Shown in pieces: positions 26,437-55,067 of a stretch of DNA of 64,000 nt. The DNA is from Ceratodon purpureus (lineage: Eukaryota > Streptophyta > Bryopsida > Pseudoditrichales > Ditrichaceae). Location of the stretch: the NCBI GenBank assembly GCA_014871385.1, contig CM026426.1:46305611-46369610 (forward strand), written 5' to 3'. The notes under the pieces are model-generated. The model ran no database searches, was not told the DNA's origin, and saw only the letters and a list, made by a program, of their open reading frames with translations. Each line of letters opens with the position of its first letter. Position 1 is the stretch's first letter. The translations under genes were made by a program, and so were the position numbers.

Positions 26437-26746
26437 TCAGAGGCTGGCAGTCCTGCTGATAGTGTAGTGGGCAACCCTAAACGTGTTAGGTTCAAAGATT
26501 AGGACGTCTAATAACAAGTATATCTTGGCTGTAATAAAGGGTATATGTCACGGAATACGAGGTTTATAGTGCACTTGTATTGAAATAGAATGCAATCAAT
26601 GTGAACGACAAAGCCTTTATATTGAAAAAATCAATACAGCTTTTGATATTGCTGACTTAGTACATGGGATATTACTGAAATTATTCACAACGTGATCAAT
26701 GGCCATTGTAGAAATGGCAGTTCTAAAGAAGGAGGGCTACCTACTT

Positions 26747-31429: not shown

Positions 31430-31516
31430 TAAGTATTTATAATCTCTCTAGGACCACTCTAATGTGAATTATTTGTGTAATCTAGTATATTTGTAAAACG
31501 TTAGTAATTGAATAGG

Positions 31517-31556
31517 CATTAGGAGAAAAATGAGCTAAAAATAAGGCCGTGTAAGC
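31517..31556 (+). repeat. left terminal inverted repeat of element D
   Basis: CATTAGGAGAAAAATGAG at the edge and GGCCGTGTAAGC at the inner side. Pairs with 42,950-42,989. Confidence 0.85.
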
Positions 31557-35200: not shown

Positions 35201-35458
35201 TGCCAGGAGTGGAGGTCAAGGAGGAGGCGTGTTGGACGAGCATATGTTCTTAAAGAAGTCGTGGAGGACGAAGGAGATTGGATGATGGAAGAAGAGCAGG
35301 AATGGAATGCCAACGAGGACATGGTTGGCAGTGGGGGCGAGGAAGATGAACAGAGGGACGCTGCTAACAACGATGAGGACATCGCGGATGCTAGCAACAG
35401 GGGTGCCGGAGAGGATATTGCCCCCGATGTCGACATTGCACATGCTGACAGCGACTAG
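32262..35458 (+). pseudogene. transposase-like gene of element D, multi-exon, with in-frame stops
   Basis: Exons 32,262-33,572, 33,712-34,796 and 34,889-35,458 are joined by GT-AG introns that keep the frame. Exon 1 carries TGA at about 32,277, TAG at 32,648, TGA at 32,654 and TAG at 32,756 in an otherwise open frame with a coiled coil (EEELGKVREDLAGSRERLDH). It continues into TAVALAKILTRHEGLTLATQ and PSPYHVKRLRQELNA. Exon 2 has HLAPDMKTIKCMYGLQSG, a CAMNCIYC zinc knuckle and HICTLHALVRLTEKIVH. Exon 3 has WFVEHYGSLGVWSCQGMEKS and an acidic tail ending DSD-TAG. The block order (D-x-K, CxxC, LHxxxRxTE, QGxEK) resembles transposase-like proteins I recall from invertebrates and fungi; the family name is not certain. 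It is the likely mobility gene of the element, now inactive unless the stops are read through. Confidence 0.5.
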
Positions 35459-37330
35459 GGAGCTCGGAGTCATGGAGTTTTTTTTGGTATACAATGTTTT
35501 GTAGAAGGGTAATGTTACAAAGAAGTAATGCCTTTCAAAGATACTGTATTCTATAGAGAGGATAGTGAAGCGAGTAGTTACATGAACGCTTAAATTGTCT
35601 TCAAATGTACACTTTCATTAAAAAAAATATTAAAAAATTCAAAAATTTAGGCAATTCACTCTCAAAATTTAGTAGATGTACAAATACATAGTCAAGTAAA
35701 CATCGCCCATACTCAGACAAAGTAGACTCGAATTTTTTAAACTACATGATCTCACATTCGCGATATCATATTTAAATTTTAGAAAATATGGATGTTCTCT
35801 GTAGAAATAAATGTTACAAAAAGCCAAATTTTTCCCCTTTGAATCATGTTCTCATGTAAAGTTATCTTGCTTTCAAATTTAGTTCTCTTAATTTTTGATC
35901 ATATATCTTAGTTAATAAGTTTTTACATTTAATATTTCTTAGAGATTTTTACGAGACCCCGGGTGCCAATAAGTTGCACACTTCTTAATTGAATTTTCTT
36001 ATTTTTAATTTTTAATTCTATGTTTATCTCCTATTCTAAATATAGAATATTAAAGATCATTTATTTTTATTTCAAAGACACACGAAAAATGAAAGAGAAA
36101 GTCTATTATTTTCTGGACTCTTCCCAGTTTTCTAGATTTTTGTGATAGATGTTTCATATTTCTAAATTTACCAAAATTATAAAATTTTAGTAAAAATATT
36201 TAAAAATACAATAAATTACTTACTAGGAAAAGTATGAAATATCCTAAATAAGTTTAAAAACGAAATAGTAGAATCAAATACACTTTCTGGGGGAGTTACA
36301 GTAGAATAGATTATAAGAATTTCGTAAACTTATACAAGTCATATTCTTCAATTTATCGAATATGAATAATAATTTATACACGTTCTTAATTTTCAATTTT
36401 CATTTTTTTCTCATTTGATGTTATCGAGAGTCCCCTTCTGAACTACTAATTAATAGTTTTTGTTCTGTTTCCTAACAATTGTTATTTTTGAGTTTCCTTT
36501 GTTATGGTCCTAATCAATTTCTTTCCTTTTTTTGTCCCTTTTCTTTAAGTAATTTTTAAATTTAATTAGTTTCCCAACTTCTCTTCTTTTTGGGAGATAG
36601 TCAAGTATTTTGAAAATACACGCCAAGTAAGGTTTATATTTTCATATGGGTTTCCTTCCAACTGCAGATAATTCTCTTATCTCTCATCATTTGGTTTTTG
36701 GGTTTTTATGTTTTTTTATTTTTTCTTTATTTCGGATTTTTCCTCGTTTTTTTTTTTTTTTCTTTTTCAATTACTTTTATCTTCATTTAACTCTTTTTCC
36801 ATATAGATTTTGGACATCTCCCTAATCCTTCATTATTTAAGGTTTTCTTCTGTTCAGATTTTTATTCCCCTGCATTTAAGTGTTTTTGAAATCGCTATAT
36901 AAGGATTAAATTTCATTTGGTTTTGATTATGTGTCCATTTGTTTTTTTTTTTTCCCACAAATTATTATTTTAAACCTTTTCTTTTTTTGGTTACTAACTT
37001 ACTAATTTATGTTTTTATGTTTATATATTTTCCTTTTCATTTTTAGATTTAGTTAGTTTCCCGACTTCTCTTTTTTTTTCCAATAGTCAAGTATTTTTAA
37101 AATTGCCGAGTAAGGTTTTATTTTCATTTTGGTTTTTAATTTCGTTTGGTGTTTATTTTCATTTGTTTTTTATTTTGATTTTGTTTTCTTTCCAACTTCA
37201 TAGAATTCTCTTATCTCTCATCATTTGTTTTTTGGGTTTTTACTTTTTTTTTTTTTTTTTTTAAATTTTAAATTTTTTTTAAAATTTTTTTTTTTTTAAT
37301 CTCCGACGACTTTTAATGTGATGGGATGCT
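35459..37330. other. AT-rich interior with diverged repeats
   Basis: No genes. Segments recur: AGTTTCCC(A/G)ACTTCTCTT...AGTCAAGTATTTT...AGTAAGGTTT at about 36,566-36,640 and 37,050-37,115, and AATTCTCTTATCTCTCATCATTTG at about 36,669 and 37,202. The TGCTGGCAGCA word is absent, unlike the rest of element D, which supports a nested insertion. Confidence 0.5.
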
Positions 37331-37622
37331 GTAGAGGGGCAGCATTATAATGGGCGCCGGTCATCCCCTATGACCGTGGCGCCCATTACCCCGTGGGGTA
37401 GAGAGGGGGAGGAGCGCTCCCCTTTCCCCCCTCTTCCAGCCGTTGCTGGCAGCAACCCCTCCGTGCTGAAGGCGACGACTTGGAGGAGAGATCCAGAGAG
37501 CGAAGGGGGAGACCTGAGAGGGGATGCGAAGAGGAAGGCAGAAAGGGAGAGGGGGGTTGGGGTTGCGGGGAGGTTGATGCCATCGCGAGCGCGGAGCTGA
37601 GGGCGCGGGGAGGAAGGGAGCC

Positions 37623-37790
37623 GCGACTGGGGAGGAGGGGAGCTGCGACTGGGGAGGAGGGGAGCCGCGACTGGGGAGGAGGGGAGCTGCAACTAGGGAG
37701 GAGGGGAGCCGCGACTGGGGAGGAGGGGAGCTGCAACTAGGGAGGAGGGGAGCCGCGACTGGGAGGAGGGGAGCTGCAACTGGGGTGGAG
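37623..37790. repeat. 22-bp minisatellite, about 7.5 units
   Basis: Unit GCGACTGGGGAGGAGGGGAGC(C/T) with GCAACTAGGG variants in alternating order; one unit is 21 bp. It lies in the GC-rich region upstream of the RING gene. Long ORFs on both strands here are products of the repeat. Confidence 0.9.
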
Positions 37791-38253
37791 GTCGTAGGCC
37801 GGAGGGCGCTGCGGCCGCAAGGCACCGAGGAGCAGCGGAGAAGACCGGTGCGGAGCAGTGAGGAGGCAGCGTTAGTGGCGACGCGGAGGTGCGAGTTAGA
37901 AGCACGGCGTCACTTCAGGTAACAAATTCAATTCCTCATTTCAAATTTCTTCATTGAGCTCAGTTGTGCTTGTTGGGCTGAGTCTACTGTGGAAGGTGTT
38001 GTATCGTGTTGGTTTCTACTTGCAAATGGTTGTGACAAGATGGTTCGGGACTTGGTTGTCTAAATGGATGCGTGCTGAAATGTATGCAAGAAGCTTTCCT
38101 TCACGTGTTGCAGCTGTACTTGTTGCGAAGTTTAGAATCTAAACATTGAATTTACTCTCTTTCCTACTTCACAATTGAACACATAGGACTTAGAGTGCGT
38201 CGTTTTTAGCTCAGGTGCTGGGGACTCTAACAACTGTATGTTGTGTTGCAGCC

Positions 38254-40164
38254 ATGGTTGCTGGCAGCAAGGACGACGGTGTTCTCACGCAGTGGGACCT
38301 CCCTTTTGACCTGAAGGCTCTACCGCAGGATGTGGCGGACAAGGCCGTGGTGATGGCGCCCTTTCTTCTTGGTAGGAAGAGCGCAAACTACGACGTCGAT
38401 TTCTTCAACCGTGCGCTTGGGCTGTGCAAGAAAGGGATCTCCTTCACCGAGCTCAGCAGTGACAAGGTATGCAAGAAATCCTTGTTCATTAAGAGGTTGC
38501 CGGAACGACATGGAGGGCGCCACCACATTGCTGACTGCACCGACAAGCAGGCTGTCGAGGCTTACACACTCCAGCATGCGAAGGTGTATGGAGGTGAAGG
38601 CCCTGACAACGGGACATTTGGTACCTCCTTCCTTCGAGGCTGCCATCTGACCTTCGAGCTGGGCGAAGACGTCAACTGGGCAGAGAAAGCCGCGACCTTG
38701 CAGAAGGCACGTGATAAGAAAGATGCCCGCAACCCTCTCAAGCTCACACCCCCAGCCTTCAGAGAGCAGATCGAGGCCCTCATTGACGTGCTCGCTGGCC
38801 ACATCCCCGACAGACCCTCTGCTGGCAACACGGTCATGGCCATTGAGGGAGTCGGCATCGGACCTAGCCACGGGGTCCTTGTTACGAGGAGCAGCAGCAA
38901 GGGAGCGCCTGCAGCAGAGGGAGCTCGGGGTCGCACTCGAAGCCAGGTCAAGTCGAAGGCGCCCTTGATCACTGAGGAGGAGAGCTTGCCCAAGTCTTCA
39001 CTTGCTGGCAGCAAGGATGAAGACCGACCCAGCACGGATCCGAAGGCAAAGCTGGACCAGGCCAGGGCCAAAAAGGCAAGAGCTCAGGCCGAGCTCACGA
39101 AGAAGGAGGCTCAGAGGGAGTTGTTTGAAGGAGATATCAAGAACCAGAGGACCTTTATGCAGGAGAAGTAGGATGAGGAGGGCCGGTTCTATGAGGAGAT
39201 TGCTGCCCACCGTGCTGCCAGCAAGATAGCCGCGGCCGCTGGCAACACGGCAGAGAAGAAGCGATTGGATGCTCTGGCCCGTCTAGGTGGTGATCAGATG
39301 GCCAATGCGAGCAAGGCTGCCGAAGAAGCCCAGCTTCGCATTGACAACAAGGAGAAGCAGATGGATGCTTTGATGGGGGACATAGAGAGGTGCAAGGCCG
39401 AGATTGGTGCTCTTAGCGTGGAGATCATGACCCTGGAGCTGGCAGCGGCATTCATTCGCCCGAAGAGTGTGCTCCCGCACCTGCCATCCGAGTTTCGAGC
39501 CCTCCCCTTTCAGGTTTCCGACCCTTGCCCCTTCTGTGCGCGGTACTTTGTTGACGCTGCTTGTGTACCCTTGAACTGCGGCTGCTTGGCACACCCACAT
39601 TGCATGTTTGAGGTTGTCTTCTCCCTTGACGCCAAGTGTAGCCGTTGGTGCCGCTCCTTGAGTGGGGGATGGCTTGGGCAATGGGGATTTCCACTGCATG
39701 AGTCGGCTCAAGCGGAGCAGCAGCACCTCCTTGAGGTTCTCAAGTCCGAGGTGGGAGCACCAGACCTCCAGAGCCCCGTTGCTAGCAGCAAGAGGGCCGC
39801 TGAGCGCTCTTCTCCTCCTTTGGGGGAGGAAAACCAAGTGAAGAAGAAGACTCGCTTTCTGGAGGAGTCCGAGGCTTCGGGTCCGTATGTCATCGCCAAG
39901 ATCTCCGCTCAGCCCCTGGTATCCGCGGCTGTGCTGCCAGCAGATGGAGGGGATGGCGATGGTGTTGCGAGCACCCAGAAGTCAGATGACCTCAGCTTCC
40001 AGCAGGGGACACAAGCCCCTCCACGCCAGGAGGCCGAGGACACAGCCACTCATGGTGGTGGACTCAGCTCCAGCACCACCGAGTCCGGGGGGACATCTCA
40101 AGACCGGGCTGGAGCTGCCCTGGAGAAGCTCGTTGATGCCATCGCGACCTCAGTAGAGGCTTAG
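38254..40164 (+). CDS. RING-like, coiled-coil accessory protein of element D
   Basis: The start MVAGSKDDGVLTQW lies two bases after a consensus acceptor (TTGTGTTGCAG), so an untranslated or short 5' exon is likely upstream, in the GC-rich region. One in-frame TAG at 39,169-39,171 (Gln-compatible, EK-stop-DEEGRF) splits an otherwise single 636-codon frame. The N-terminal domain of about 170 residues is not recognised; coiled coils lie at about residues 268-390 (QARAKKARAQAELTKKEAQR). The zinc domain CPFCARYF...CGCLAHPHCMFEVVF...CSRWC has RING-like spacing, and a disordered tail ends at TAG. The plan matches the B-element gene at 11,858-15,029 and, in part, 21,458-23,660. Several TGCTGGCAGCAA words lie inside codons (AGSK, ASSK and AGNT tracts), so the element's word has spread into coding sequence. 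Confidence 0.65.
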
Positions 40165-40808
40165 AGTCTGTGGTTTTTTTTTGGTTCATAGTGCCATAGC
40201 GGATTAGTATTAGTGGCTATTAGTTTGTGCCACGTTGCATTTACATTTGCTGCCCTAATTTTCGGCTCTATTTCACAGCTGCGGTGCCAGCAAGTAGTTG
40301 CTGGCCGCAGTGTGTAAGTAGTTCCGATTGGGGGGGGGGGGGGGGGTGGGGTCAGACTTTAAAAAAACCGAACCTCATTTTTTTTTGATAATTATGATGA
40401 ATGTTATCCTTTTTTATTTCTATCTTGTACATGTGGCTGCCACATTGGTCGTGATGGTATGAAAGTCGCCTTGGTCGTGAACCCTAATGTGTGCTGACAG
40501 CAACATGTTCTAGAAGAAGACTTTCATTCATCAAGGGGGAAGGTTACATGATTGACCATATATGTACCATACATGATGTGTCAAGCACAAAGCATAGTCC
40601 CTTACAAGTGTAAATAATCATTCTGGCATTGGTCTAGTGAAACATGGAGTCATCTCAAATACTGTAGGCAGACTTGTGAAGACACTAATAGATCACCTTA
40701 ATGCCGTGGTGAAATCGTTGTTGTCCTACACCTCCACTATCTTGATGGTTTTGGGAACCGCCACCTCACCAAGAAGTACACGCCTCTCATTACGTATGTT
40801 GATCTACA
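40165..40808. other. convergent 3' region with a poly-G run
   Basis: Lies between the RING gene (+) and the gene ending at 40,809 (-). It contains a 17-base G run (40,330-40,346) and words GTGCCAGCAAGTAGTTGCTGG and TGCTGACAGCAAC. No coding sequence. Confidence 0.5.
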
Positions 40809-42047
40809 TCAATGCCTCCAACATAATGCGTTAGTACAATTATGCTGATACCAAGCAGCAGCACCTTCCATATCTAAAACGAATGGGGTGATGCTGCTTA
40901 CATGTACCTTTTTTTCACGTGAACCGTCTGCTTCCACCAGAACCATATTGTACTCTTTGGGATCATCGTCTCCAAGCGTCATTGCAATTTCATGGCGCAA
41001 GTGGGATACAGGCCAGTCCTTGCCCACTTCAAATGCTGGCATTGGTCTCCCTCTAAATGTACAGCAGACTTCTAGCATCTCCACCTCTGGTAGATGGTCA
41101 ATTGCATCCCATCTGTTGTTGGCAGCACCCCGAAACCTTGTATACTGGAACCTGGTGTATAGTGTTTGCCTACCCACATGGTACCTGAAGACAACGCTGG
41201 ACCTATTCACAACGCACTTGATAACATCTTGGCCAATGTGAAACTTCTCAGCCCATCCTGGTTTCATCAGACTACTTGGGAGTGCCTCCGACGGAGAGTG
41301 TAGAACGAAGAGTGTAGGAGTCCGCCGAATGCTGTCACATGCAATCGCAAACAAGTCCACCATAACGTGGACAGGCATAAACCATTGCTCATGGGCGAAA
41401 CTACTGCCAGTGGACGCTTTCATCGCATTCGAAAAATCTGCTGTCAGCTTCGTCCTGAAGGCTTCGGAGGTGTGCATGTCTGGCAAAGGCCACTCCACAT
41501 CGTTGAAACCAGGGAGCGGGATTGGTTCTATCCTCCCGTACAACGTAGGCTCTACGAGGGGAAAATATACGCCACCAAGGAAGAATGTACCCGTGTCCAA
41601 CAAGTCTGTATGGCTTCGACCATTCCGCGTCGCCTCCCCAATCTCTGCATGGAGCACAAGAATGGGACTGATGATAGACGTGGGGTGCACCCAATCATCA
41701 AAGTGCGAGGAGTATAGGTAGTTTGCCGTGCATTGCCTACTTGCTGCCACAGCGGGATCCAGGCTTAATTGGCGAGGCTGATACGCATGCCGAACAAGCA
41801 CCTTATCCAGGTTGCTTGCTCCACGCACACCAGGTGTCCATGAGAAATCCACGATTTGAGCCTTGAAGGCCCCTCGAAAATTATCTCCACCATGCCGCCT
41901 TGCCTCTCTACCCCAAGGCCCTTCCGACTTTGGTTGCAGCAGAACCCACGAATCCCGGTCCAGCCTCATTGGGATCCAATTGCCGTGGACATCTTGATCG
42001 TTGTGCAAAATTACGCTCTGAACTATCGATTTTGGCCGTCTGGCCAT
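40809..42047 (-). CDS. element D protein with a possible ubiquitin-like C-terminal domain
   Basis: An uninterrupted 412-codon frame starts MARRPKSIVQSVIL and ends CTNALCWRH-TGA. The main body is not recognised. The last 85 residues (LEVCCTFRGRPMPAFEVGKD, VSHLRHEIAMTLGDDDPKEY, NMVLVEADGSREKKVHVSSI) have the strand-helix-strand rhythm and polar character of a beta-grasp (ubiquitin-like) fold, without a C-terminal GG. This is a shape-based guess. Its place beside a RING-type gene in the same element would fit, but no interaction is shown. No introns or stops, so it may be the youngest or most constrained gene of the element. Confidence 0.45.
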   Translation of the reverse strand: MARRPKSIVQSVILHNDQDVHGNWIPMRLDRDSWVLLQPKSEGPWGREARRHGGDNFRGAFKAQIVDFSWTPGVRGASNLDKVLVRHAYQPRQLSLDPAVAASRQCTANYLYSSHFDDWVHPTSIISPILVLHAEIGEATRNGRSHTDLLDTGTFFLGGVYFPLVEPTLYGRIEPIPLPGFNDVEWPLPDMHTSEAFRTKLTADFSNAMKASTGSSFAHEQWFMPVHVMVDLFAIACDSIRRTPTLFVLHSPSEALPSSLMKPGWAEKFHIGQDVIKCVVNRSSVVFRYHVGRQTLYTRFQYTRFRGAANNRWDAIDHLPEVEMLEVCCTFRGRPMPAFEVGKDWPVSHLRHEIAMTLGDDDPKEYNMVLVEADGSREKKVHVSSITPFVLDMEGAAAWYQHNCTNALCWRH

Positions 42048-42949
42048 GCTTTCCTAAACCCCAAGGTATTGGGAGACACAGAAATGAACTATAACACCTC
42101 CCTTTCGTACCAACCAAGGCGAGGGAACATGCTGCCAGCACAGAGAAAATCAAATTTGCATAGTTTAAGCACTTGAGGAGAGGAAAATCTTGAGTTTGTA
42201 ATCAGAGATGAAGTTTGAGGAATTCATGCCTAGTCACAACGTTGCCCCCAGGAGGCAGAAAAGCTTGGATCATGTCAAGACAGGGAATTGATCATATTGG
42301 AAAAAAAATTACCTAGTTCTGTAGCTCGCTCGCAGCAAATGGCACATTGAGTTGACAGCGAAGAAAGCCGCACTTCCACCTTGATTCAGCAAGTAACTAC
42401 TCAAGCACAATTCGCTACATGAACAACACCCACAACCCCAAATCACCTGGTCAACTCCCAGCAAGTGCTAACTCTTGCTGCCGGCACCGGTTTTCCACAA
42501 TCATGTGTCTCTCCCTTCGCACTAACCCACACCCACTCTCCCAAATCAGCTGGAATCCTCTCAGCCCCAACTCCCGCTGGCTGCAACCAATTTCCCAAGT
42601 GCGTGCCCTCTCCCGTAGCGCCGAACACCTGCTGGCTGCACTCACTCTCCCTACGAAGTTCAAAAACTTCGGCACTCACTCATCGTCGGTGGGGGAGGTA
42701 GGTGGGCGGACTCATAATTTCCTCGTTCAAAGTGCTGGCAGAAAGTTTGCTGACCTGAGCAGTCGGCTCGGGATCCGGTCCTTGCTCCGCCAGTCCGCTG
42801 TCAGCCCGGCACTGTAGATGTGCCCTCCACACGCCTCGCTCGGAGGTCATTGGTTCGAGCCCCCGTGGCGGTTGCTGGCACCACGGTGGCACCTCACATG
42901 CCACGTCAAAAAGTACGCGGGCAGCGACTGTTTTTTTCTCTCACGTGCC
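42048..42949. other. right subterminal region of element D
   Basis: Upstream of the minus-strand gene. Rich in TGCTGGC/GCCAGCA variants (about 42,128, 42,460-42,485, 42,570-42,630, 42,730, 42,873). The ORFs here show no domain. Confidence 0.5.
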
Positions 42950-42989
42950 GCTTACACGGCCTTTTTGTGACCTGATTTTTCTCCTAATG
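42950..42989 (-). repeat. right terminal inverted repeat of element D
   Basis: Inverse complement reads CATTAGGAGAAAAATCAGG at the edge and GGCCGTGTAAGC inside, pairing with 31,517-31,556. Confidence 0.85.
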
Positions 42990-43029
42990 TTGTATAAAGA
43001 ATGTGAAGTTCGCTCTAAGTCTATTTGAG

Positions 43030-43115
43030 AGGGGCCGCGGCAATTTACACACTCGAATCATAAGTCTCATTGAGGGGGCCGCGGCACTTGACACACGCGA
43101 ATCATGGATTCGAAT
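43030..43115. repeat. two short direct repeats with CCGCGG cores
   Basis: GAGGGGCCGCGGCAATTTACACAC...CGAATCAT and GAGGGGGCCGCGGCACTTGACACACGCGAATCAT, immediately upstream of the ParB-methyltransferase gene start. They could be promoter elements. Confidence 0.55.
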
Positions 43116-43146
43116 GTCTGCTATTTTTATATAGAGCACCGAGAGG

Positions 43147-46100
43147 ATGAGAGGGGTCGGGGATCTATCTGGTGGCTCCGCAGTTGAAGATTGCATCGAG
43201 TTGGAGCACCTGCGTCTCGAAGCGAGACGAGCGAGGCAAGGTATTCTCGACGCAGGAGAGGGAGGGAGAGCAATGGCTGCGCACGGAGAGCAGAGTGTGG
43301 GCGGCCGCGGCCAGGGGGATGTTGAGCAGGTCGGTGGAGTCGTGGAGTTTGATGGAGGCGTGGAGCTGGAGCAGCAGCCCGGAGTGCAGCACGAGGACCA
43401 GATCGAGGGCGACCTCGACGACCAGCTCGACAACGAAGACCACGACGACGAGGTCAGATTCTTTTGGTGTCGGTAATTTGGAATTGTATGCTTGATGGGT
43501 ACTGTTTGATGGGGTTGATGGGGTCGTGGGGATTCGCTGGTTGCTGGGTTGCTGAGGATGATGCGGATTTGCTGCTGTCAAGTGCTGGGGTGTTTCGGGA
43601 AGTTGGAGATTTGCGTGATGTTGGTTGGAATGTCGCATTGGAAGCTCGGGGAGTGCTGGGGATTGAGAATTTGAGTGTTGGGGGATTATGGATTGCGAGG
43701 ATTGAGAATTCGAGGAGTCAAGGTTCGGTTGGGTGGATTTTAGGTTTATCGTGTTTGCGGGTAGTGGGTTTTTCGTTTGCGGGTCTCTCCTTGTTAGAGA
43801 TTTCGTTTGAGGGTTGCGGCATTTGAATGCTGCTGCGGCTCTAGACAAACTGCTGCTACTCACAACAAGGATGGTCTTGTGCGGATTCGCGGATTCTCGC
43901 ATAGTGTCAATCGAGGAAGAAATCAATTATGCAGGAGGCTCGGCCTTCCAATCTGCCCAGCTTCAGTGATAGAGAGCCGCGGCTGAGGAGGCTATGAGCC
44001 TCCCATGAGGCTTGCGGCTCGCATTTTTTTTTTTTTTTAATTTTGTGGCAAGCAGCCTGTAGCCCGCTTTCGGAGCAGACACCAGTGTCGTGAGCCCTCT
44101 CAATTGTCTTCTTTTAATTGCTTTTTTTAATTTCTTTTTGTGTTTAGTTTAATCTCCCCCCAGGTCACTCCATAGCCCTACTCCTCTTACTCTTCCTCAC
44201 TCTCCCTAACCCTGCTCGTCTCTCCCTCCCCGTCCCTGCTCACTCCCTTTCTTTCCCTCTCCCTCACTGTCTCCCTGTCCCTTAATTTCTCCTTGTCTAT
44301 CTTGCTCCCTCGCCATCACTCCCTGTCCCAGCTCCACTCTCTCTGCCTCACTCTCCCTGTCCCTCTCGTTCTCCCTATCCCTTTGCTGTTCCCTCCCCCT
44401 ATCTTTCTCCCTATCCCGCCCCCACTCCCTATCCCTCTCTTAATATTACATCTCTCTTAACTAAGTTTTTTTTTTAATGCATTTTATTTTATTTATTGGA
44501 TTCATTCTACTTAACTTAGGATGTATATTTGTGTGATCATTCGTGCATGTAGATGAGAACCTATCAATAGGGGTGAGAATAATTCTAATAATTGACATTT
44601 CTGCATTTTTTATCAATTGCAGGATACTTCTCAGCAGAACACGGGGACCGAGAGTGAAAGCAAGGGACCTGAGGAGACAGAGGTATGGTTACAGATGTTT
44701 TCATTTATTGTATTTACATGTTCTTATTCTCCTCAATAATTGAAGTTGAGCATTTGAAAGTTCTTTCAAACGATTTGAAAACTCTAACTTCCTCATGTGC
44801 CTTGTACTTGCAGGTAGGCTCTGATGCTCCCGACATGTCAGTCAATTCTCCTATCTCTGTGATCAACCTTTCAGACCTGTCAGACCCAGAGGATGAGCGT
44901 CTTTGTACCTGTGATTTAGCCATTCCTTTAGGCGTAGACACTGGACCTTTCGAGGTCCAGTCACCCCAGTACATGCCTACTTCGCCTATTTATGAGCCCA
45001 CCTCTCCAGTGTACATGCCCACCTCGCCACGTCTTGGCACACCGCCGTCTTTGCCTAATCCCCCAGTTTCACCTTCGGTTTTGAGGAGGCCAGCCCATGT
45101 ATTGTTTGCCCTTCCGGCAATACTGCCCAGCGCTTGCCGTCAGACCAGGCGATTTTGGAGGAGGCGCCATCATTGGAATAGTAGAGAGGCTAGACAGTAC
45201 TATGGAAGGGCTCCTCGTAGAGTGGCACGGCCTTGATGCTTGGTGCCATAGCTGAAATTTGAGATGTTTTTTTTTACTCTTTCATTTATGAGAAAATCTC
45301 TAAGTGATTGGTAAAATCTATTTTTCAGTATCTACATTGCTGAGTTTGATTGTTCATTTCTATTGCTTACGGCAGGTACCCGAGTTGACGCAAACACAGG
45401 ACGTGTTGCCATCATCATCAAAGCCTCTGGACTTGAAAGACGCTGTTGAAGGTGAATTGCTTCATCGAACACAGCATAAAGTTGACTCGATCAACGTCAT
45501 CAATGGCGTTCGTATTTAGCCCTTGAGGAAGTCTCGCCTGCTTGTCCCATTGTGTAGAATGGTCGCAATGGCAAAAGTCAGACCGGTTGGCGAAATGGGC
45601 GTGCAACATCTGGAGAGGGAGTTCGTGAAGGGTTACAGAGATGGGGACCGCGTGATGTATATTTCCATGTTCAACACTGAAGAGATGTCAATGGATGTCA
45701 CGGAGGAAGTGAAGGCAAAGTGGAGCCTGTGCTGGCGCAGGGCTAACGAAGCCTTCGAAGCCGACCTCCAAGGAGACGATGACCTCAATCAATTCAGTGG
45801 CAAAATGTTTTTTGTATGGGAAGGTAACCATCGCCTTTCAGCTTGGTTACAACACATCAACAAGCATCATTCCGACGACCCAGCTTGGCACATCTCCGTG
45901 CATTGCATCATATTGGACCCCCGCGGCCAAGTGGGCAATCTTCTCCATGCCATGCACGACATCAACTCGTAAGAATTTTGGTTGAATAATTTCTTAAATT
46001 TGATTTCGGATCATCCTTCTATTATGAAGTGTTTTCTAAACAGTTTTTTTTTACCACAGGTCTACTGAGAATGACCATGTGAAGAGTAATCTTCCAGCGA

Positions 46101-49100
46101 AGTTATTCCGCATCCGCTCTTTCGGTGTCATGAAGTTAGAAGAATTCAAAGATATTCTAAGCCTAGAGGAGTTTGAAATCTATGTGCAAAACAAACACGC
46201 AAAGGACCGATGGTTCAGCTTGAGAACGAAGGTTTTCATTGCGTTCCTATACCGAGTAAGAATTCATTCCATGACTCAGCAAGTACATTTGTTCTGATCC
46301 TTACTTTAACTAATGCATTTCAAGTAGTTTGTACATTGATTTTAATATATTGCGTTTCCATGTACAGAGAGAGATTGCAGTCGCCTCGGATCAGGCCGCA
46401 AGAGCCTACAAGGAGAACACGCCAATAGAGGATCAATTTGGATCTGGAGTTTGGGATGCGATGACGACAGCATCAAACAACTTCATCGATGCCGTCAAGA
46501 AGAAGGACTTCACCAAGTACTTGGCCATTGCGAATCCCAAAAATGGTGACGACTTCCTTGCCGAGGTGAATCCTTAATCACTTCATCTTAAGCTATTTTG
46601 TTCTTATCTCCTATGTTATCTTGATTTCATAATGCTAACAGTTCTGTTCTAATTGCAGATTAACCGCCACTTCAGCGATCTCAACAAACCTGAGATGACA
46701 TTGGACAAGCTGCAGAAGATTGTGCAGGCGGCAGTTGAACCGAAGTACAAAGCTCGTTGGTTGAGGTGGTGGAACTTCTCTCCGACTTCAAGGCAGTCTT
46801 ATAGGTTCCCACCACCGGAGTTCAAGGAAGCTGACCTCGACCGTTGGCTAAACAGGGCTTCATTCTGGGCAGGGGTATGCTCCCTTATTTCCAGAACTGA
46901 TAATGTCTTTGTCATTCTGTCACTTTGATTGTCGTAGTCTAATTCTGCTGACTGTCTCTTGTAGTTGGAAGAAGCGGTCATCCAAGAGTTCGAGGATATG
47001 TGTAAGGCTAAGGAGCTGGACATCAACTGGAATGCCTCCTTTGATGTTCAGCGACCGGGCGATTACGTGGAGAGCTGGCGTATTCTGCTTTGGGACAGAG
47101 CATTCCCGGCATTCCTTGGATCCAAGGCGAAGAAGACTTTTGATAAGAAGACGATTTTCACGAAATTCCCTGGAACGGAAGATGTTGTCAAGCGAGTCAT
47201 CTACCGGTATGAATCTTTACTCAAACATGTGTGCATTTCAAAACCTACAGTTCGTCTCTCCCACATACTAAGTATTTTAAAATTGGCCCACACTAGGTAC
47301 TTCAAGAGAGAGCTTCTTCCAAAAGGCGCCGTCACTGTCCAACAACTCCCGAAGTACTTTCCTTTATGGATCCAGAGAGGCTCGGACCAGTGTATCTACT
47401 CTCCTCAGCAATTGAAGAGGTACAAAGCTCCCCACTTGGAGGCAGGATGTTGGTATCTAGATTGCCTCCGTGGTTTTACAGTTGATTCTGAGGCCGATGT
47501 CAAATCATTACTTGATCTTCAAGCGCCGGTCGTTGAAGACTCCAATGAAGCTTCTGAAGAAGACGAAGAACATCAGAGTCAATCATTTGCACCTCAACCG
47601 AAGAAAGGGAGAGCTCGGCGATTGCGAACTCTGGGTTCAAAGTCACAGACCTCACAAGATACTGAGGCTTAGTCTTCCTCACCAGGGAAGGAGATGGGCA
47701 ACGCTTCTCCAACTATAGACGTCCCAATGCCAACGTTGACCATAGCGAATGCGCCTTCATCCATTGGTGCTTCTGCGATCACGCGAAGTCTCATTGAGCA
47801 GAGGAAGGCCAAACTATATCCTCAAACAACTTCTTCTGCTGGAGCTTCGATTTCCACACATGTTTCCGTCTTCAACTCATCTGTGGATTCCATGTTACGG
47901 CGAAATAAGAGACAGGAGAGAAAAGGTGGCGGCGACCCGGATTGGATCAAGACTCAAGACTTTATTCGCAAGGTATGTTCCGATATTTTGACATTTAATG
48001 GATTCAGCCACCTCTACTCGCTTTGTAGTTTCTAACTCTGCTTTCTTGTTTCCTCAAGTTTGGAGCAGGCCGCGAAAACAGAGTTGGGGACCGGTGCAAA
48101 CAAGAGGACCATCTGGGAGTCGACTTGATCATTGCCAACATCCCTGAGAATCTTCCTGTCCCATCCGTTTTCGTTCCCCCCACGAGTATTCCGCCTTGGA
48201 ACTCTCGCCCCAAGGATTATGTGTACGACATCTTCCGTTTTGCAGATTCATACCTGCAGAGAGATGGTGCCCTCTGCCTCATCTACAACACTGATCAGAA
48301 TGTGGTTAAGGATATCGAGGAAGAAGCTGAGGGTGGTGACTTCGTGCTTTTCAAGGACTGGTGGGGCGTCAATGTACTCGGCCTGTCTTCTCCTACGAAC
48401 CCCGAGAACTTGGTAATTCCCCTAAACATACCCTTCTCTTTACTTACTGATAACCCTTCCGCTTAATTTTACTCACTAGTTTTGCTTGACTGCAGACTAT
48501 GAGGTTCTGGATTCGCATCTACGTTCGTAGTGGCAGTACTTTCTCCTTCCAGACGAAGAATTCCGAGTTGATACATGGGGTCCTCAACATTACCGAGAGT
48601 GATGCCATTTTCAACTTCACCGATGTGGAATCGCAGCTCATGAATGGGGAGGTGCCGTGGAGAGGCCCAAGGGAGAAAGCCCCTGAGATGATGCAGGGAA
48701 TAATTGAGGAGCTGTCAAAGCCCGGCGACATAGTCCTTGATTGGAATGCTGGGACAGGTAACTCTTCATACATATCTCTGCTTAATTATTCCTCTCATTT
48801 TTTCCACAGTTTCTCATTTCTTTGTTTCTCTCCGAGTTTCAGGGGCCTCCATCAAGGCTTGCCAGGCTATTGGTCGTCACATTCTAGCTTTTGAGGAGGA
48901 CGAAGCCATATTCAACGCCCTTCTCAAACCGTGCATGGCTAGACCATCAGCCATGGGCCCTCCTAAACATCCAAGGCCGGCAGCAGCAGGCGAAGCGCCT
49001 CCAAAGAGAGCAAGACCTGACAAGTGGTGTAAGTCTTCTATTCTTTGTTCAAATTATCCAAGCATTGCTTCTCTTTGCTAACCTACGTACTCGATCTAAC

Positions 49101-49390
49101 CACAATTGGTTCTCTATTGCAGAGTAGTTTCAGCAACACCGCCACGTGGGCCAACATCAGTGTCCACTCCATCGTGACGTCTTCATTCCAGCCCGATTCA
49201 GCCTTTCATACTTCCGGACTACGCAGAGGGCTTAGCACAGGCGTTTCAATCTGGAGCCCTTACATACGTTCCTAGTCGGCCAACTACTTTTGATCCCAGG
49301 GCCCTTATATTCGTCGATGACGAGGCTGTAGAAGGAGATTCGGAGTCATCGTGTTCTGAGAGTGAAAGTAGCGACTGTAGCATGTTGTGA
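43147..49390 (+). CDS. ParB-like plus beta-class amino-methyltransferase fusion protein, copy 1
   Basis: Proposed exons: 43,147-43,452; 44,624-44,683; 44,816-about 45,206; 45,376-45,968; 46,060-46,255; 46,368-46,565; 46,659-46,874; 46,965-47,206; 47,297-47,972; 48,059-48,412; 48,496-48,757; 48,843-49,028; 49,125-49,390. From exon 4 on the GT-AG borders keep one frame; linking exons 1-3 to it is less sure. Features: an acidic N-terminus, CTD-like heptads (44,970-45,032), a ParB/DGQHR-type block FFVWEGNHRLSAWLQ, and a conserved middle (FTKYLAIANPKNGDDF). A methylase domain follows in beta-class order: DLIIANIPENLP in the motif IV position, later EELSKPGDIVLDWNAGTG as motif I, then QAIGRHILAFEEDEA. 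Motif IV lacks DPPY/SPPY and motif I lacks the usual Phe, so catalysis is doubtful. In-frame TAG at 45,517 and 47,670 (Gln-compatible) and TGA at 49,175 (Arg-compatible). The C-terminus is acidic and Ser-rich, ending at TGA. Confidence 0.65.
44160..44450. repeat. pyrimidine-rich CTCCCTNTCCC repeat in intron 1
   Basis: Irregular CTCCCT/TCTCCCTATCCC units on the plus strand within the first intron of the ParB-methyltransferase gene. Confidence 0.7.
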
Positions 49391-49668
49391 GTAGGAAGGA
49401 GGCTTCGGTCTATTGTTGTATTCATTTGATTTAATTGGAGTTTTATTGCATATTACTTTGTCTTCTCTACTGCAAACATCCTAAACTTGTTATGATTGTC
49501 ATATCCAATTCGTCTCCGTGTATGTAAAGGATGAAATGTCACAACTGTAATGCTCAACATGTACCATGAACAATGAAATGTTAAAACATATATATGCTCC
49601 AAAATATATATATATTCCTGTAATTAATTTCTTAATCATTCAAACTCTCACCCTAAACCGTAGCCATG

Positions 49669-50235
49669 TTACCTATTCTTGGGAGAGATCCAGATACCAT
49701 CTCTCGGAGAAATTTTCTCTCCTTCCGGCACATCCAAGACCTCATTCCCATTGGCCCATAGCAATGTCCTCAACTGATCTAACTCGACGCAACTAAGTTC
49801 TCCAAGGGACGCTGTCTTTAACCTCTCGTTGTAAATTCGAGTTGCAAGTTTCCAAGAACTCCTAAAAACACTCCAGTTGATGTTGAACCGATTAACTTCG
49901 TATTCCTCCTTCGGACTCCAATGGCGACCCTCGTACGAAAAGTAATCCCACCGTGCTAACCGAAGGCATGCGAATTCAGGACTGCTGTCAATCTCACGCT
50001 TCCAACTCTTCAACACAGCACGAGCGTTCTCAACGTCTTCAAACGTGATAACAGTCGGAGGAGTCCAACCCTGCGTCGCACTACTATCTATATGATCTCA
50101 GGGGTTAGACCCGTCCGCCATCCGCTTAAGCAAATCCTGTAAAATCATTTCACAGGCAACGACCTCAAATGATTCTCCCATACCTTAAAACAACTCCCTA
50201 GCAAGTACACGCTTAAGTTCGACAGAAATGATTGA
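49669..50235 (-). pseudogene. convergent ORF downstream of the methyltransferase, copy 1
   Basis: Minus-strand protein of about 188 residues: VELKRVLARELF, MILQDLLKRMADG, WTPPTVITFEDVENARAV, LKSWKREIDSSPEFACLRL, then EYEVNRFNINWSVFRSSWKL and a stop at 49,669. Two stops (TAA near 50,185 and TGA near 50,099) are absent from copy 2, which reads ELFEGMG and NPWDLIG there, so copy 1 is damaged at its start and copy 2 at its end. No domain recognised. Conservation between copies suggests it was a real gene of the unit. Confidence 0.5.
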
Positions 50236-50543
50236 GCTTATACAACTTCAAGGACGTCTGCTAAGGCTTATATAGATTCTTGCTTGACACTTAAGCTAGG
50301 AATGCTCTTATCTAAAGACGGAGATTTCTTCGGCGAAGACAAACAGTGAGACTTGGTGTACATCTTGGTTTCTGCTACTCCATTATTGTACACGGACTCT
50401 GAAATATTCCACGAACTTTTAAGACCATTTCTTTTTGGTGGTTTCGAGTTCCCTTATTCCTAGAATTATCTATATTATCTAAAAACATCATGCTGGAATA
50501 CTCGTATCTAGATATAATAAGGGACCAAATCTAAAGGAATAAT

Positions 50544-50933
50544 CTAGTCTTTACGGTAGTAATCCTTCGGGGGATATACAGTCCAACTCTTGTCGATATC
50601 AAACCAGCAAGTTTCGCCATCCGATATGATCACTTCGGGCAGCTGAACAACTGGATTCTCATCGACGGTGGATGGCAAGGGATACGGGATTAGGGACAAC
50701 TCCATAATAAGGAGAAGCTCATTCGTACAAAGCACTGTCCAACGCCATTCACCTTCACCAACATGGAGGCTTCCGATGTGCCTAAACGGTGGCAGGTCCA
50801 TGCCTCGTTCCTTGGCGCGCTCCACCTCCAGCAGCTAGGGCCGCAGCTCCTCATAACTCGCCGGTGCCTTTCGGGGCAAACCTACAACCGCTCTCGTCGT
50901 CCTCGAACTTGCATTACGCACCTTCCGCATCAC
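50544..50933 (-). CDS. hypothetical protein, minus strand
   Basis: Open frame from MRKVRNASSRTTRAV (about 50,933) to YYRKD-TAA at 50,544, with one in-frame TAG at 50,835-50,837 (Gln-compatible, ELRP-stop-LLEVE). It contains WRWTVLCTNELLLIME, VVQLPEVIISDGETCWFDID and TVYPPKDYY. Not recognised. It lies upstream, in the same orientation, of the ORF ending at 49,669 and could be its 5' exon. Confidence 0.35.
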
Positions 50934-51584
50934 GCAACACACTAAATTGTTGTAGTCTTAAAACGTTCCGCGCAAGCTTGCAAATTGACCCCCCCGAACT
51001 CCTATGCTACCTTCGCATACAACACAGAATGCCAAGGACTGTGTCACTATCCAAATACGCCACCTAGGAACAAGCTCAAGAAACCAAGAGTGACCTCCTT
51101 CTGTGGAACCCAGCTTACCAAGTGCTGTTTCATGATGAGAATCTCTTACTTATATCACTCAAATGAAGAAGCTTCGCTGCCTAGGAAGAGAGAGTAATCT
51201 TCGATGAAGACAAGGACTCTAACAAGGTATATCTTGGTTTCAGCAGTTCAGATATTATATACAAATTTTGAAATATTCCAGGAAGTTTTCAAACCTTGCC
51301 TCCTTTATGTTCTGTGAAAGTTGTTTTTTTCCTTGTGCATTTACATAATCCTATGAAAGAATTATTTGTTTGATCTAAAACTTAACGCCTGATCATTGTA
51401 TCTTGCCTAAATCTATGAGAAATATAACAAAATATATGCATGACGTCATCATGACATCAGCCCTAATTTGTATCTTAGAGAACAAACGTAATAAATTCTT
51501 ACCAGAGATAACCCTGATTCCACGGTAATATACTCTTTTCCTAAAAAAACTGTCAAAATCAAGCCTTAATTTAGTAATTTTTCC
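50934..51584. other. repeat-bearing spacer of the tandem unit
   Basis: A block containing TATATCTTGGTTTCAGCAG...GAAATATTCCA(C/G)GAA occurs at about 51,225-51,290 and again near 50,360-50,420 and 54,600-54,665. 51,435-51,584 (CATGACGTCATCATGACATCAGCC onward) is repeated at 54,817-54,954. No gene. Confidence 0.6.
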
Positions 51585-51700
51585 AGGGTTATAGGGTCTA
51601 CTTTGCTTTTGAAAATTTGGCTACTTGTCATTTCTGTGCTCTCCATTCTGTGCTCTCCGCTCTCCGCTCTACGCTCTCCGCTCACATACAAACTTTCCCC
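51585..51700 (+). repeat. GTGCTCTCCGCTCTCCGC minisatellite, second copy
   Basis: GGGTTATAGGGTCTACTTT, then GTGCTCTCCATTCTGTGCTC units, then CTCACATACAAACTTTCCCC. It directly abuts the middle of exon 6 of the second methyltransferase copy. Confidence 0.8.
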
Positions 51701-51714
51701 CTACCTCAACAAGA

Positions 51715-54190
51715 CACCCGAGGATGAGCAGTCTGCAAGTGCGGTTTGGGATGTCATGAATGAGGCATCACATAGAATGGTCGAATCCATCAAGAAGAAG
51801 GACTTTACCAAGTACTTGGCCATTGCAAATCCCAAGAATGGTGACGACTTCCTCAATGAGATGACTCTCTCATCATTGTTACGTTCATTATTTTGTATCC
51901 CTACAACAAATTCTGTATTAATACTTATCAAAACTTCGGAACTTCTTGCAGATCAATCGCCATTTCAGTGACAACTCTAAACCTGAGATGTCACTCGATA
52001 AGCTTCAGAAGATTGTTCCAGCGGCCGTTGAGGCCAAATACAAAGCTCGTTGGTTGAGGTGGTGGAACTCATCTCCGAGTTCCCGCATGTCTTACAGATT
52101 TCTACCACTTCGAATTCAAGGATACCGAATTCGACCCCTCGTTGAACAGGGCTTCATTCTGGGCTGGGGAAAGTTTCATAAAAAAACCTTCCCAATTCCA
52201 TGTTCTTTTATTATCTTAATGAATTCTTTCTCGTTGCTACTGATATGAATTCTGTATTACAATTGGAGGAAGCCGTCATCAACAAAGTCGAGGACATATG
52301 GAAGGCGGAGAACCTCGATATCAATTGGAGGGCATTACCTGATGTCCAACAGACGGGCAATTATGTGGAGAGTTCACGTATTGTGTTGTGGGACAAGGCC
52401 TTCCCTACGTTCATTGGAAAGAAGGCTGAGAAGCCCTTCGACAAGAAGGCCAACTTTGCTGAATTCCCTAGAACCGCTCAGGTTGTCAACCGTGTTACTT
52501 ACCGATACGTTACCTAACTTAATTGCATTTGCATTTTATAATTTTCCCTCTATTTCTTACTAATAGTAACCTTCTAAATGTCTTCCTTTAGGTACTTCAA
52601 GCGAGAGCTTCTATTGAAGTGGGCCATCACGGTCCAGCAGCTCCCGAAGTACTTCAGCGCTTGGACGCAGAGAAGCACGGACTAGTGTATCTATTCTCCC
52701 TAGCAGTTGAAAAGGTACAAAGCTACTCACCTGGAAGCTGGATGCTGGAATCTTGATTGTTCTGGTGGTTTCACTATTGACTCGGAGGTGGACGTCAAGA
52801 TACTACACGATGGGGGTGAGGTGGTGGTCGAAGACTCAATGGATGGTGCAGAGGATCACAAAGGATAGCAGGATCAATCATCTGCTCCTCCACCGAAGAA
52901 AGGGAGAGGGCGGCGACTTAAATCACTACGTTCTCAATCAGAGGCATCACAGCTAACCGGTGCGGAGTCTTCCGCGTCAGGGCAAAAGGCACCAGAGCCT
53001 TCTCCAGGTAATGTCGTTACGAAGCCTTCTTCAACTTCTTCGCCGGCTCCTTCCTCGATCAGTGCTTCCGAGATCACCAGAAGTCTCCTTGTGCAGAGGA
53101 AAACCAAGCAATTTCCGCAGACTACGTCTTCCGCTGGAACTCCAAAGTCCACACATGCGTATGTCATCAACTCCTTTGTGGATTCGGTTCTGCTTCGACA
53201 CAAGGAACTCGCTGACGTGGGTGGCGATCACGAATGGAACAAGGCTCTAGACATTGTTCAAATGGTATGCTCCTTTGTTTAGGGCTTTCCCTTTAATACG
53301 TACATTAGTGTAAATCTCATAATGTCTAACTCTGTTTTCTTGTTACCTCAAGTTTGGAGCAGGCCGCGAGAACCGAGTTCCGCCTAGATGCAAAGAGCAA
53401 AATCACTTGGAATTCGACTTGATCATTGCCGACATTCCTGAGAATCTTCCGGTCCCTACGATATCCAATCCCCCCTACGTCACTCTATCTTGGAACAAAT
53501 GTCATAAGGAGTATTTGGAGGACCTCTTCGAATTTGCAAGACATTACTTGCAGTATAATGGTGCTCTTTGCATAATCCAGAACAACGACCAAAAACTTGC
53601 TACGTGGATTTCTGAAATGGCTAACCTTGATGGCTTCGTGCAACACCAAGACTGGTGGGGCTTCAATGCACTAGGCTTGGCTCACCCTACGATCCCCGGC
53701 TCCTTGGTATGTACATCATAATCATTCTTTATCTTTGTATTCTACTAAGCTTTCTTATTAATTATACTCACATTTTTTGGTGACACGCAGTCTCTTCGAT
53801 TCTCGGTGCGCGTCTTCATTCATGGTGGTCATCCCCCATCCAAGTTCTCTTTTCAAACGAAGAAATCCGATGTCGTATACAACGACCTCCACATTACCGA
53901 GAGTGATGCCATTCTCAACTTCACCGATGTGGAATTGCAGCACATGAATGGGGAGGTGCCGTGGAGAGGCCCAAGAGAGAAAGCCCTTGAGATGATGCAG
54001 GGCGTAATTGAGGAGATGTCCAAGCCCAGTGACATAGTCTTTGAGTGGATGGCAGGAAAAGGTAATCCTTCATTAACAGTTTCTGCATTTCCAATCCTCC
54101 GATTTTCTCTACAGGGGCTCACTTCTTTCTTGTGCTACGTGTTTCAGGTGCCTCCATCAAGGCTTGCCAGAGTATTGGTCGTCATATTAT
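51715..54190 (+). pseudogene. ParB-methyltransferase gene, truncated second copy
   Basis: Begins mid-exon (TPEDEQSASAVWDVM, compare TPIEDQFGSGVWDAM in copy 1) right after the minisatellite, so the heptad and ParB parts are missing. The donor after FLNE is mutated (GAG|ATGACT against GAG|GTGAAT), a 1-base deletion follows YRFLPL, and other stops occur near 52,683 and 52,868. The methylase region is clear: DLIIADIPENLPVP, DWWGFNALGL, EVPWRGPREKALEMMQGVIEE, VFEWMAGKG, then ASIKACQSIGRHI, where it fuses to the reversed ORF of the next segment. Motif IV is again DIPE, so the loss of DPPY predates the duplication. Confidence 0.75.
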
Positions 54191-54478
54191 ATCCCACCTC
54201 GCTAGCCGAAGGCATGCGTCATCAGGACTGCTGTCAATCTCACACTTCCAACTCTTCGACACAGCACGAGCGTTCTCGACGTCTTCAAACGTGATTACAG
54301 TCAAAAGAGTCCAACCCTGCGTTGCACTACTACCTATAAGATCCCAAGGGTTGGGCCCATCTGCCATCCGCTTAAGCAAATCCTGTAAAATCTTTTCACA
54401 GGCAACGACCTCAAATGAATTGCCCATACCTTCAAACAACTCCCTAGCAAGTACAAGCTTAAGTTCTACGGAAACCAT
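54182..54478 (-). pseudogene. convergent ORF, truncated second copy
   Basis: Starts MVSVELKLVLARELF at 54,478. Matches copy 1 through DDACLRLARWD, then is cut by a deletion that fuses it to the methyltransferase end. It preserves the start codon lost in copy 1. Confidence 0.6.
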
Positions 54479-54954
54479 TGAGCTAATACAACTTCAAGGA
54501 CGTCTGCCAAGGTGTATATAGATGGTTGCTTGACACTTAAGCTAGGAATGGTCTTATCTAAAGACGTAGAATTCTTCGACCAAGACATGCAGTATGACTT
54601 GGTATACATCTTGGTTTCAGCAACTCCATTATTGTACACGAACTCTGAAATATTCCACGAAGTTTTAAGACCGCTTCCTTTTGCTTGTTTCGAGTTCTCT
54701 TTTTCCTAGAATTATCTATATTATTTATTCAATATTTAATGTTCTGATCTGAAAACATGATGCTGGAATACTTGTATCTTCATCCAAAAAGGAACCAACT
54801 CTAAAGGATTGTATGCATGACGTCATCATGACATCAGCCCCAATTTGTATCTTAGAAAAGAAACGTAAGAAATTCTTACCAGAGAGAACCCTGAATTCCA
54901 CGGTATTACACTCTTTTCCTTAAAAAAGTAACAAACTAATGCCTTTTTTAGTAT
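54479..54954. other. second copy of the unit spacer
   Basis: Matches 50,236-50,470 and 51,421-51,584 in order (CTTAAGCTAGGAATG, GAAATATTCCACGAA, CATGACGTCATCATGACATC), showing that the whole unit was duplicated in tandem and the second copy shortened. No gene. Confidence 0.65.
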
Positions 54955-55067
54955 TTTTCCACGCTTATAGGGTCTACTTTACTTTTGAAAATTTCGCTAA
55001 TTGTCAATTCTGTGCTCTCCATTCTGTGCTCTCCGCTCTCCGCTTACATACGAACTTTCCCCTTGGA
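54955..55067 (+). repeat. GTGCTCTCCGCTCTCCGC minisatellite, third copy
   Basis: GCTTATAGGGTCTACTTTAC, then GTGCTCTCC units, then TACGAACTTTCCCC. It directly abuts the broken transposase of element F. Confidence 0.8.

Follow-up and report, generated by a model that had tools for sequence, protein, structure and literature searches.

A methylase-fold gene with an altered active site is carried by a large, palindrome-bearing DNA transposon in the moss Ceratodon purpureus

The window analysed here is a stretch of 64,000 nucleotides of the moss Ceratodon purpureus (C6:46305611-46369610), from a genome of 362.5 Mb in which C6, with 110.5 Mb, accounts for 30%. It holds two copies of a multi-intron gene, the more complete of which joins an N-terminal half with a GNHR box (N-half) to a half that resembles bacterial DNA amino-methyltransferases (methylase half). 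We conclude from sequence comparison that this gene is cargo of a large, high-copy DNA transposon and not a unique nuclear gene, and that the active site of its methylase half has been altered in a near-fixed manner. In most subfamilies read, the transposon also carries tandem arrays of a palindrome, the type of which follows the N-half of the gene.

Matches to the exons of the gene are dispersed through the genome (at least 375), and the identity of the dispersed copies compared is 93–99.6% within a subfamily. Twenty loci from four groups were compared, with group C split into subfamilies C1 and C2. In all twenty, the similarity stops sharply at the right end, ...ACTTTCCCC, beyond which the DNA is unrelated; in L031, this right end is that of a neighbouring piece. 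The 29-bp right end has 285 exact occurrences in the genome, and its reversed control has none. Two complete copies with inverted ends were traced end to end, one of 19,558 bp on C4 and one of 15,167 bp on C10; both are flanked by target duplications of 10 bp (CTGTTGATTC and ATACACAAGT), and the termini of the element are GAGGG/GGGGA. The order within the element is a small open reading frame (ORF), a transposase encoded in two parts by the minus strand, a second small ORF, the tandem array, an exon with heptad repeats, the GNHR/methylase gene, and the right end.

In the window, the first gene copy lies in an old and interrupted copy of the element, E1, which is 89% identical to the complete C4 copy over 25107-31434 and 91% identical over 50350-51702. 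Its inverted arms (25083-25155 and 51622-51694) are the sole inverted pair of at least 60 bases reported in the window; no target duplication of E1 was found at the window's left end. The second gene copy belongs to another element. A sequence-only reading of this DNA had described a nuclear gene, captured long ago and reused, perhaps as a pseudoenzyme. The dispersed copies inside mobile elements rule out a unique nuclear gene, and with it the idea of a captured host gene; in the literature searched, which did not include the genome's own paper, no description of the element or of a plant ParB-methylase fusion was seen.

The methylase half is, by profile match and motif order, a real beta-class N6/N4 amino-methyltransferase-like domain, as had been proposed. 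The Pfam profile N6_N4_Mtase matches it over motifs X-I-II (E=2.6e-8, 34.5 bits with a cut-off of 26.7). A profile built from the two window copies matches DpnA in the PDB (E=8.4e-6), and a six-row profile matches CcrM (E=0.0036), the alignment covering nearly the whole length and both parts of the domain. Motif IV stands before motif I: in copy 1, NIPE (48137) lies ahead of the motif I stretch VLDWNAGTG and of GRHILAFEEDEA. Motifs X (REK), I (DWNAGTG), and II (EED) are retained. In the alignments with both DpnA and CcrM, the xIPEN stretch stands opposite DPPYN. Against DpnA, the xIPEN stretch by itself scores 1 to 5 bits, and the strength of the match is due to motifs X-I-II; the register of motif IV is further backed by a related family of the same genome, in which DQPYN occupies this position.

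We read motif IV in 40 copies (35 sampled rows, L007, L009, L010, L011, and copy 2 of the window), a number that should not be taken for independent lineages because many copies are near-identical. D[IV]PE is present in 34 of them, and the other six are one residue off: N replaces D in window copy 1, L048, L071, and L074, P is changed to S in L046, and E to K in L040. All 40 have I or V as the second residue; the codons vary silently. The sequence-only reading had asked whether xIPE is fixed among homologues and had allowed that a normal DPPY elsewhere would make this copy merely decayed; DPP[YFW] occurs in 0 of the 40 copies, none of which has the (D/N/S)PP(Y/F/W) of active beta-class enzymes. 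In the related family, motif IV, read in four loci, is DQPYN in one (L083 on C8) and DQPF in three (L080 on C12, L081 on C3, L082 on C1); its methylase exon is also repeated, with at least 58 matches at E<=2.1e-26. Judged by their letters, DQPY and DQPF stand between DPPY and D[IV]PE.

Between distant subfamilies (three pairs: A, B, or C2 versus D), the ratio of nonsynonymous to synonymous substitution (dN/dS) of the methylase half is 0.26–0.31, with bootstrap limits below 0.5. For the N-half, it is 0.09–0.15 in seven of eight pairs and undefined in one, and for the middle region it is 0.09–0.22 over eight pairs; copy 1 compared with copy 2 of the window gives 0.52 (0.36–0.78). These values indicate that the methylase half is constrained, although less than the N-half and the middle region. 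A loss of the active site by mere decay of the window copies is not compatible with a D[IV]PE that is near-fixed across copies under purifying selection, and we regard the altered motif IV, on this comparative evidence, as a near-fixed trait under such selection. For the same reason, the term pseudoenzyme is a fair one for the methylase half. According to the relevant passages of PMC8885841, the replacement of SPPY by APPA abolished the activity of bdelloid N4CMT, another eukaryotic member of the class, from which we infer that D[IV]PE proteins do not catalyse methylation. A relocated catalytic motif was also considered, since a match to the MTS profile (E=1.6e-4) had suggested the NPPY located 12 residues downstream in copy 2. 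This NPPY is retained in L077, and the stretch reads VPPT, NPTY, NPAY, or DPPT in four groups; the candidate was rejected.

The N-half is ParB-like at the motif level. EGNHRL is retained in 31 of the 33 N-half exons read, and the label is limited to the motif because no ParB model matches. Pfam ParB_N (PF02195) has no match at E<=1 in the whole 362-Mb genome, whereas it matches in 11 of 14 control genomes. Six family members compared with Pfam and NCBIfam gave no ParB model among their weak matches, the best of which were to other families (E 0.031 and 0.037, respectively), and a profile of the six had no ParB match in the PDB. These results do not support membership of the ParB superfamily by profile. 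Against phages, the N-half gave two matches, both at chance level, and single-sequence fold prediction of its exon without relatives gave a confidence score (pLDDT) of 36, too low for use. The strings on which the proposed ParB-methylase fusion was founded (WEGNHRLSAW, VLDWNAGTG, NIPE at 48137, and DIPE at 53431) are all present; its beta-class half is supported, and the ParB membership of its N-half is not.

A second gene with a box of this kind, YIIGGQHRFGACQEL, lies at 59506-60258 (GQHR box at 60064) and runs on to about 61060. No relation between it and the GNHR-box gene was detectable. Matches to it number at least 150 genome-wide, many of them scoring identically, which suggests that it is probably transposon cargo as well; its fold prediction without relatives gave a pLDDT of 32. 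We considered whether it supplies the N-half of the DQP[YF] family and rejected this, as it is a separate high-copy family: among the GQHR matches listed, none lies beside the DQP[YF] loci C1:835544, C3:19997552, C12:14529987, and C8:9595603.

Tandem arrays with an 18–24-bp palindrome are found upstream of the gene in most subfamilies read, with units that vary in length between subfamilies: about 200 bp repeated 27 times in the C4 copy, 212 bp repeated about 9 times in the C10 copy, and 117 bp repeated at least 26 times in C2. Palindrome types were assigned from the printed arrays. Type I comprises CCTACTGTCGTCACAGACAGTAGG in A, CCTACTGTCGTCAACGACAGTAGG in B, and CCTACTGTCGTTGCCGACAGTAGG in C1, with variants in L044 (half decayed) and L077; its arms, CTACTGTC..GACAGTAG, occur 3431 times in the genome (control, 0). 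Type II is GCATTCGGTACCGAATGC in C2, with relatives in D and in six further sampled copies, some with a decayed arm; the string GCATTCGGnnCCGAATGC occurs 75 times (control, 0). Type III, TGTCTGCTTTCGGAGCAGACA, is known from two copies, of which L068 shows a single palindrome. A loose type II pattern also matched L040 (2), L068 (1), and the window (1); the matches in L040 and L068 arise because the type III palindrome shares those letters. In two pairs of type I units, A-L077 and B-C1, the best local match covers nothing but the palindrome (0/200 and 5/200 shuffles as high), and in the pairs A-C1, D-L048, and A-B the alignment extends past it. Separately, an array of at least 15 kb with a spacing of about 128 bp and a type I variant, CTACTGTCGGCACAGACAGTAG, was observed at G000:C1:2467770-2482859.

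The two halves of the gene are exchanged naturally between copies. Subfamilies C1 and C2 have a synonymous divergence of 0.07 in the methylase half and 1.63 in the N-half, and their palindromes differ in line with the N-half. Trees were built from 15 of the 35 copies. Palindrome type has to change twice on that of the N-half, which is the minimum, and four times on that of the methylase half. A single type II clade is rejected by the methylase data (p=0.001), as is a single type I clade (p=0.025); the methylase grouping, tested on the N-half data, is rejected too (p=1e-7). It should be noted that the clade groups tested were named only after the sequences were seen. The copies left out comprise fifteen further members of sampled subfamilies (L015, L016, L018, L019, L021-L024, L026, L027, L029, L031-L034), four loci with no recognisable palindrome (L042, L046, L071, and the window), and L074, which has no N-half exon at the expected place. 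By these comparisons, palindrome type tracks the N-half and not the methylase half. This is the pattern that a reader-array pair would be expected to show, and linkage would account for it in full as well.

Between the array and the methylase gene lies a second-product exon with three heptads in the window, YMPTSPI YEPTSPV YMPTSPR, which we take to resemble those of the C-terminal domain (CTD) of RNA polymerase II. Across copies it has 3 to 5 repeats and a dN/dS of 0.05–0.25 over 15 pairs. It is preceded, in the five subfamily copies read, by a leader exon of matching phase, which could be spliced either to the heptad exon or to the methylase gene.

Taken together, the data lead us to favour, with slightly less than even confidence, a model in which the gene encodes a self-targeting array-binding factor with an anti-silencing role and a non-catalytic methylase fold. 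The N-half would bind, as a dimer, the palindromes of the array just upstream of its own gene; the methylase half would keep its S-adenosylmethionine (SAM) fold without the methylation reaction and act as a scaffold that engages DNA or chromatin. Copies with a matching array would be kept out of silencing, as VANC does for VANDAL transposons, and the element could find, and perhaps wake up, its own copies. We favour an anti-silencing factor because the layout resembles that of VANDAL elements, with VirB as a bacterial parallel in the accounts cited below. A more elaborate version is put forward only tentatively and is, taken as a whole, rather less likely than not: the transposon family would have assembled a sequence-specific anti-silencing system of its own out of components of bacterial type. 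These would be a GNHR-box reader that recognises the palindrome array much as a centromere site is recognised, a methylase fold that serves as a SAM-binding scaffold without catalysis, and a partner protein with CTD-like heptads; reader and array type would travel together as one cassette, exchanged independently of the methylase half.

Several results weigh against this model. The N-half has no ParB profile match. The methylase half is the least constrained part of the gene: in five other pairs its dN/dS is 0.31–0.61, with upper limits above 0.7 in three of them. In the arrays, subfamily D has a short one (about 2.7 units) with one arm decayed; L042, L046, L071, and the window, all of the window's subfamily, have CT-rich repeats and no palindrome in the array place; and L015, L026, and L032, from palindrome-bearing subfamilies, show none in the stretch read. 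The unit matches C2-L054 (64/200 shuffles as high), C2-D (32), and other pairs are no better than shuffles, and A-B (1/200) and B-C1 are just above them. The branch uniting type II on the N-half tree is weak (71/61). Finally, the array lies about 1 kb from the N-half exon, so that linkage alone could make palindrome type track the N-half.

This last point leads to the explanation that the arrays are ordinary transposon satellites, that their match with the N-half is hitch-hiking, and that the protein does something unrelated. Besides the short distance, the shift in C1-C2 divergence between the halves and the seven copies without palindromes agree with it. We nevertheless consider it improbable, as units of unequal length share the palindrome and, in two pairs, nothing else, and the type I arms are so numerous with a control of zero. 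Another use of the array would be as an aid to transposition or maintenance, unconnected with silencing: the protein would load on it like ParB on parS and cluster, tether, or condense the DNA of the element when this is transposed, replicated, or segregated. A palindromic array adjoining the gene of a GNHR-box protein is indeed the arrangement of partition loci, and the element has its own transposase; however, no ParA-type gene was noticed by eye among the element ORFs (no profile search for ParA was made), no ParB profile matches, and nothing specific speaks for segregation in a nuclear genome, which makes this an unlikely but reasonable alternative.

The proteins might also still be enzymes, methylating by an altered chemistry or on another target, and thus be active writers of N4-methylcytosine (4mC) or N6-methyladenine that mark their own copies. 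The retained SAM-side motifs X, I, and II, the DQP[YF] of the related family, which is nearer to DPPY, and the use of bacterial-type amino-methylases by other eukaryotes (as described in PMC8885841) speak for such activity. Since both the aromatic residue and the first proline of motif IV are lost, the APPA replacement inactivated bdelloid N4CMT in the same account, and the methylase half is the least constrained part, we think it quite unlikely. Another possibility is a single nuclear gene that goes back to an ancient ParB-methylase of a phage or bacterium, which the host captured and domesticated; the bacterial or phage type of the methylase half and the introns would suit this. As stated, this is already contradicted by the dispersed exon matches and by gene copies that lie inside mobile elements; both window copies are broken, no ParB profile matches, and its probability is very low.

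If the favoured model of an anti-silencing array reader is true, transposons outside flowering plants would have evolved a device like that of VANC on their own, using methylase and ParB-like parts, and this genome's mosaic copies would be ready-made domain swaps telling which half reads which palindrome. It would also provide a concrete hypothesis for the persistence of large elements in a genome with a 110-Mb sex chromosome; the U and V sex chromosomes of C. purpureus are given in PMC8000587 as more than 100 Mb each, about 30% of a 360-Mb genome.

The features of the window are listed in Table 1. Exon borders of copy 1, a plus-strand gene, were taken from the sequence and the reading frame, and about nine introns were counted where a dozen had been estimated. 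No known domain matched the middle region. Both window genes are decayed copies broken by stops. In copy 1, these are at 45517, 47670, and perhaps 49175 (in the last exon, the borders of which are unsure); the position of the first is K, H, or L in the five subfamily copies read. Copy 2, with DIPE at 53431, starts in mid exon 4 immediately after the right end of the first element and hence has no N-half; its frame changes near 52110, the exon that corresponds to 47297-47972 contains three stops, and the gene ends after GRHI. At the place of the array in complete copies, E1 retains none that can be recognised by its palindromes, and no paired type I arms were found in the window.

Table 1. Coordinates of the transposon and gene features in the window
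Feature	Position	Strand	Remarks
Transposon copy E1 (old, interrupted)	25086..51700	+	Left terminal repeat about 25086-25155; right 51622-51700, ending ...AACTTTCCCC
E1 transposase, in pieces	26909..30030	-	Protein shared with the C4 copy (741-aa and 500-aa minus-strand ORFs)
Small accessory ORF	30943..31467	+	Same ORF in the C4 and C10 copies
Stretch without similarity to the C4 copy	31435..44811	.	Complete copies carry the array here
Second-product exon with YxPTSPx heptads	44814..45233	+	Adjoins the methylase gene
N-terminal exon (ParB-like by motif)	45376-45968	+	WEGNHRLSAW box 45817-45846; stop TAG 45517-45519
Middle region	46060..47206	+	Exons 46060-46255, 46368-46565, 46659-46874, 46965-47206
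Linker exon	47297-47972	+	In-frame TAG at 47670-47672; GAG in copy 2
Methylase exon with motif IV	48059-48412	+	NIPE at 48137-48148
Methylase motifs X, I, II	48496-48757 and 48843-49028	+	
Copy 2: methylase gene fragment, truncated at its 5' end, from another element	51701..54188	+	84% identity to the gene of the C4 copy
Right-end remnant of second element	54191..55062	+	Ending ...AACTTTCCCC

Some further features were observed in the window. A DUF659 remnant (24369-25073, E=4.7e-18), which we take to be hAT-transposase-like, abuts the left end of E1. On the minus strand, a 142-aa frame at 49669-50097, partly repeated at 54185-54343, lies in a region absent from the C4 copy and is possibly an extra gene of the window's subfamily. 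The long-ORF proteins of 13374-15188 (minus strand) and 38194-40164 (plus strand) have RING-like cysteine patterns by eye and possibly form one repeated family; zf-RING_2 matches the former weakly.

Relatives of the transposase show RNase-H-like (by eye) and SWIM-finger-like stretches, the SWIM finger of the C10 copy scoring below the cut-off (E=0.015); no match was found among phages. Mutator-like elements make target duplications of about 8–11 bp. Despite its 10-bp duplications, the element fails the profile test for a Mutator label: the transposase ORFs of the C4 and C10 copies do not match the Pfam MULE profile PF10551, which matches 125 other places in the genome, none of those listed being at the window or at the C4 or C10 copies. 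Because of this difference, we assigned no superfamily. What is shared with Mutator-like elements is the 10-bp duplications, the terminal inverted repeats, and the weak SWIM finger; the difference is the failed MULE profile. Identity with Lanisha, the EnSpm-like DNA transposons that PMC12730594 cites from Maumus, McDaniel and Carey, was rejected as well. For the CMCT group as a whole, to which Lanisha belongs, PMC12730594 gives mostly 5'-CA..TG-3' ends and 2–5 bp duplications, against GAGGG/GGGGA and 10 bp here.

Among known proteins, DpnA, CcrM, RsrI, and phage methylases (PHROG 6952, 3008, 67) share with the moss family the motif order IV-X-I, the SAM-side motifs, and significant profile matches; the moss family differs in having D[IV]PE for DPPY, a large N-terminal part, and introns. 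Matches of the methylase half in phages and plasmids are, among those listed (20/110, 25/265, 23/23), mostly annotated methylases or hypothetical proteins. Scans of viral contigs and prokaryote genomes gave one weak methylase locus, L006, and none of the 526 pattern matches that they also gave was confirmed. Bdelloid N4CMT and the Marchantia 4mC methylase likewise have a bacterial-type amino-methylase domain in a eukaryote, but the account in PMC8885841 describes them as active writers, whereas the moss family is carried by a transposon and no longer has the catalytic motif. The fungal DNA transposons with TET/JBP genes also carry a gene tied to DNA-methylation chemistry; theirs is a dioxygenase and not a methylase fold, and the passages of PMC12730594 that treat them mention no palindrome array.

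VirB of Shigella is described in PMC10653881 as a bacterial regulator of the ParB superfamily that counters H-NS silencing, and the moss N-half is ParB-like by motif only. A parallel in layout is found in Arabidopsis, where, as described in PMC5735166 and PMC10398659, the VANC protein of a VANDAL element recognises short motifs that are repeated in tandem within that element and removes silencing marks. Tandem arrays of a short motif in non-coding DNA are present in the moss element too, although not seen in some copies. Compared by described layout, both systems have accessory protein genes and short motifs in non-coding tandem arrays, and in both, the repeat motif and the protein change between related families; in the moss, where the anti-silencing role is the putative part, the motifs are 18–24-bp palindromes and the protein combines a GNHR-box half with a methylase-fold half.

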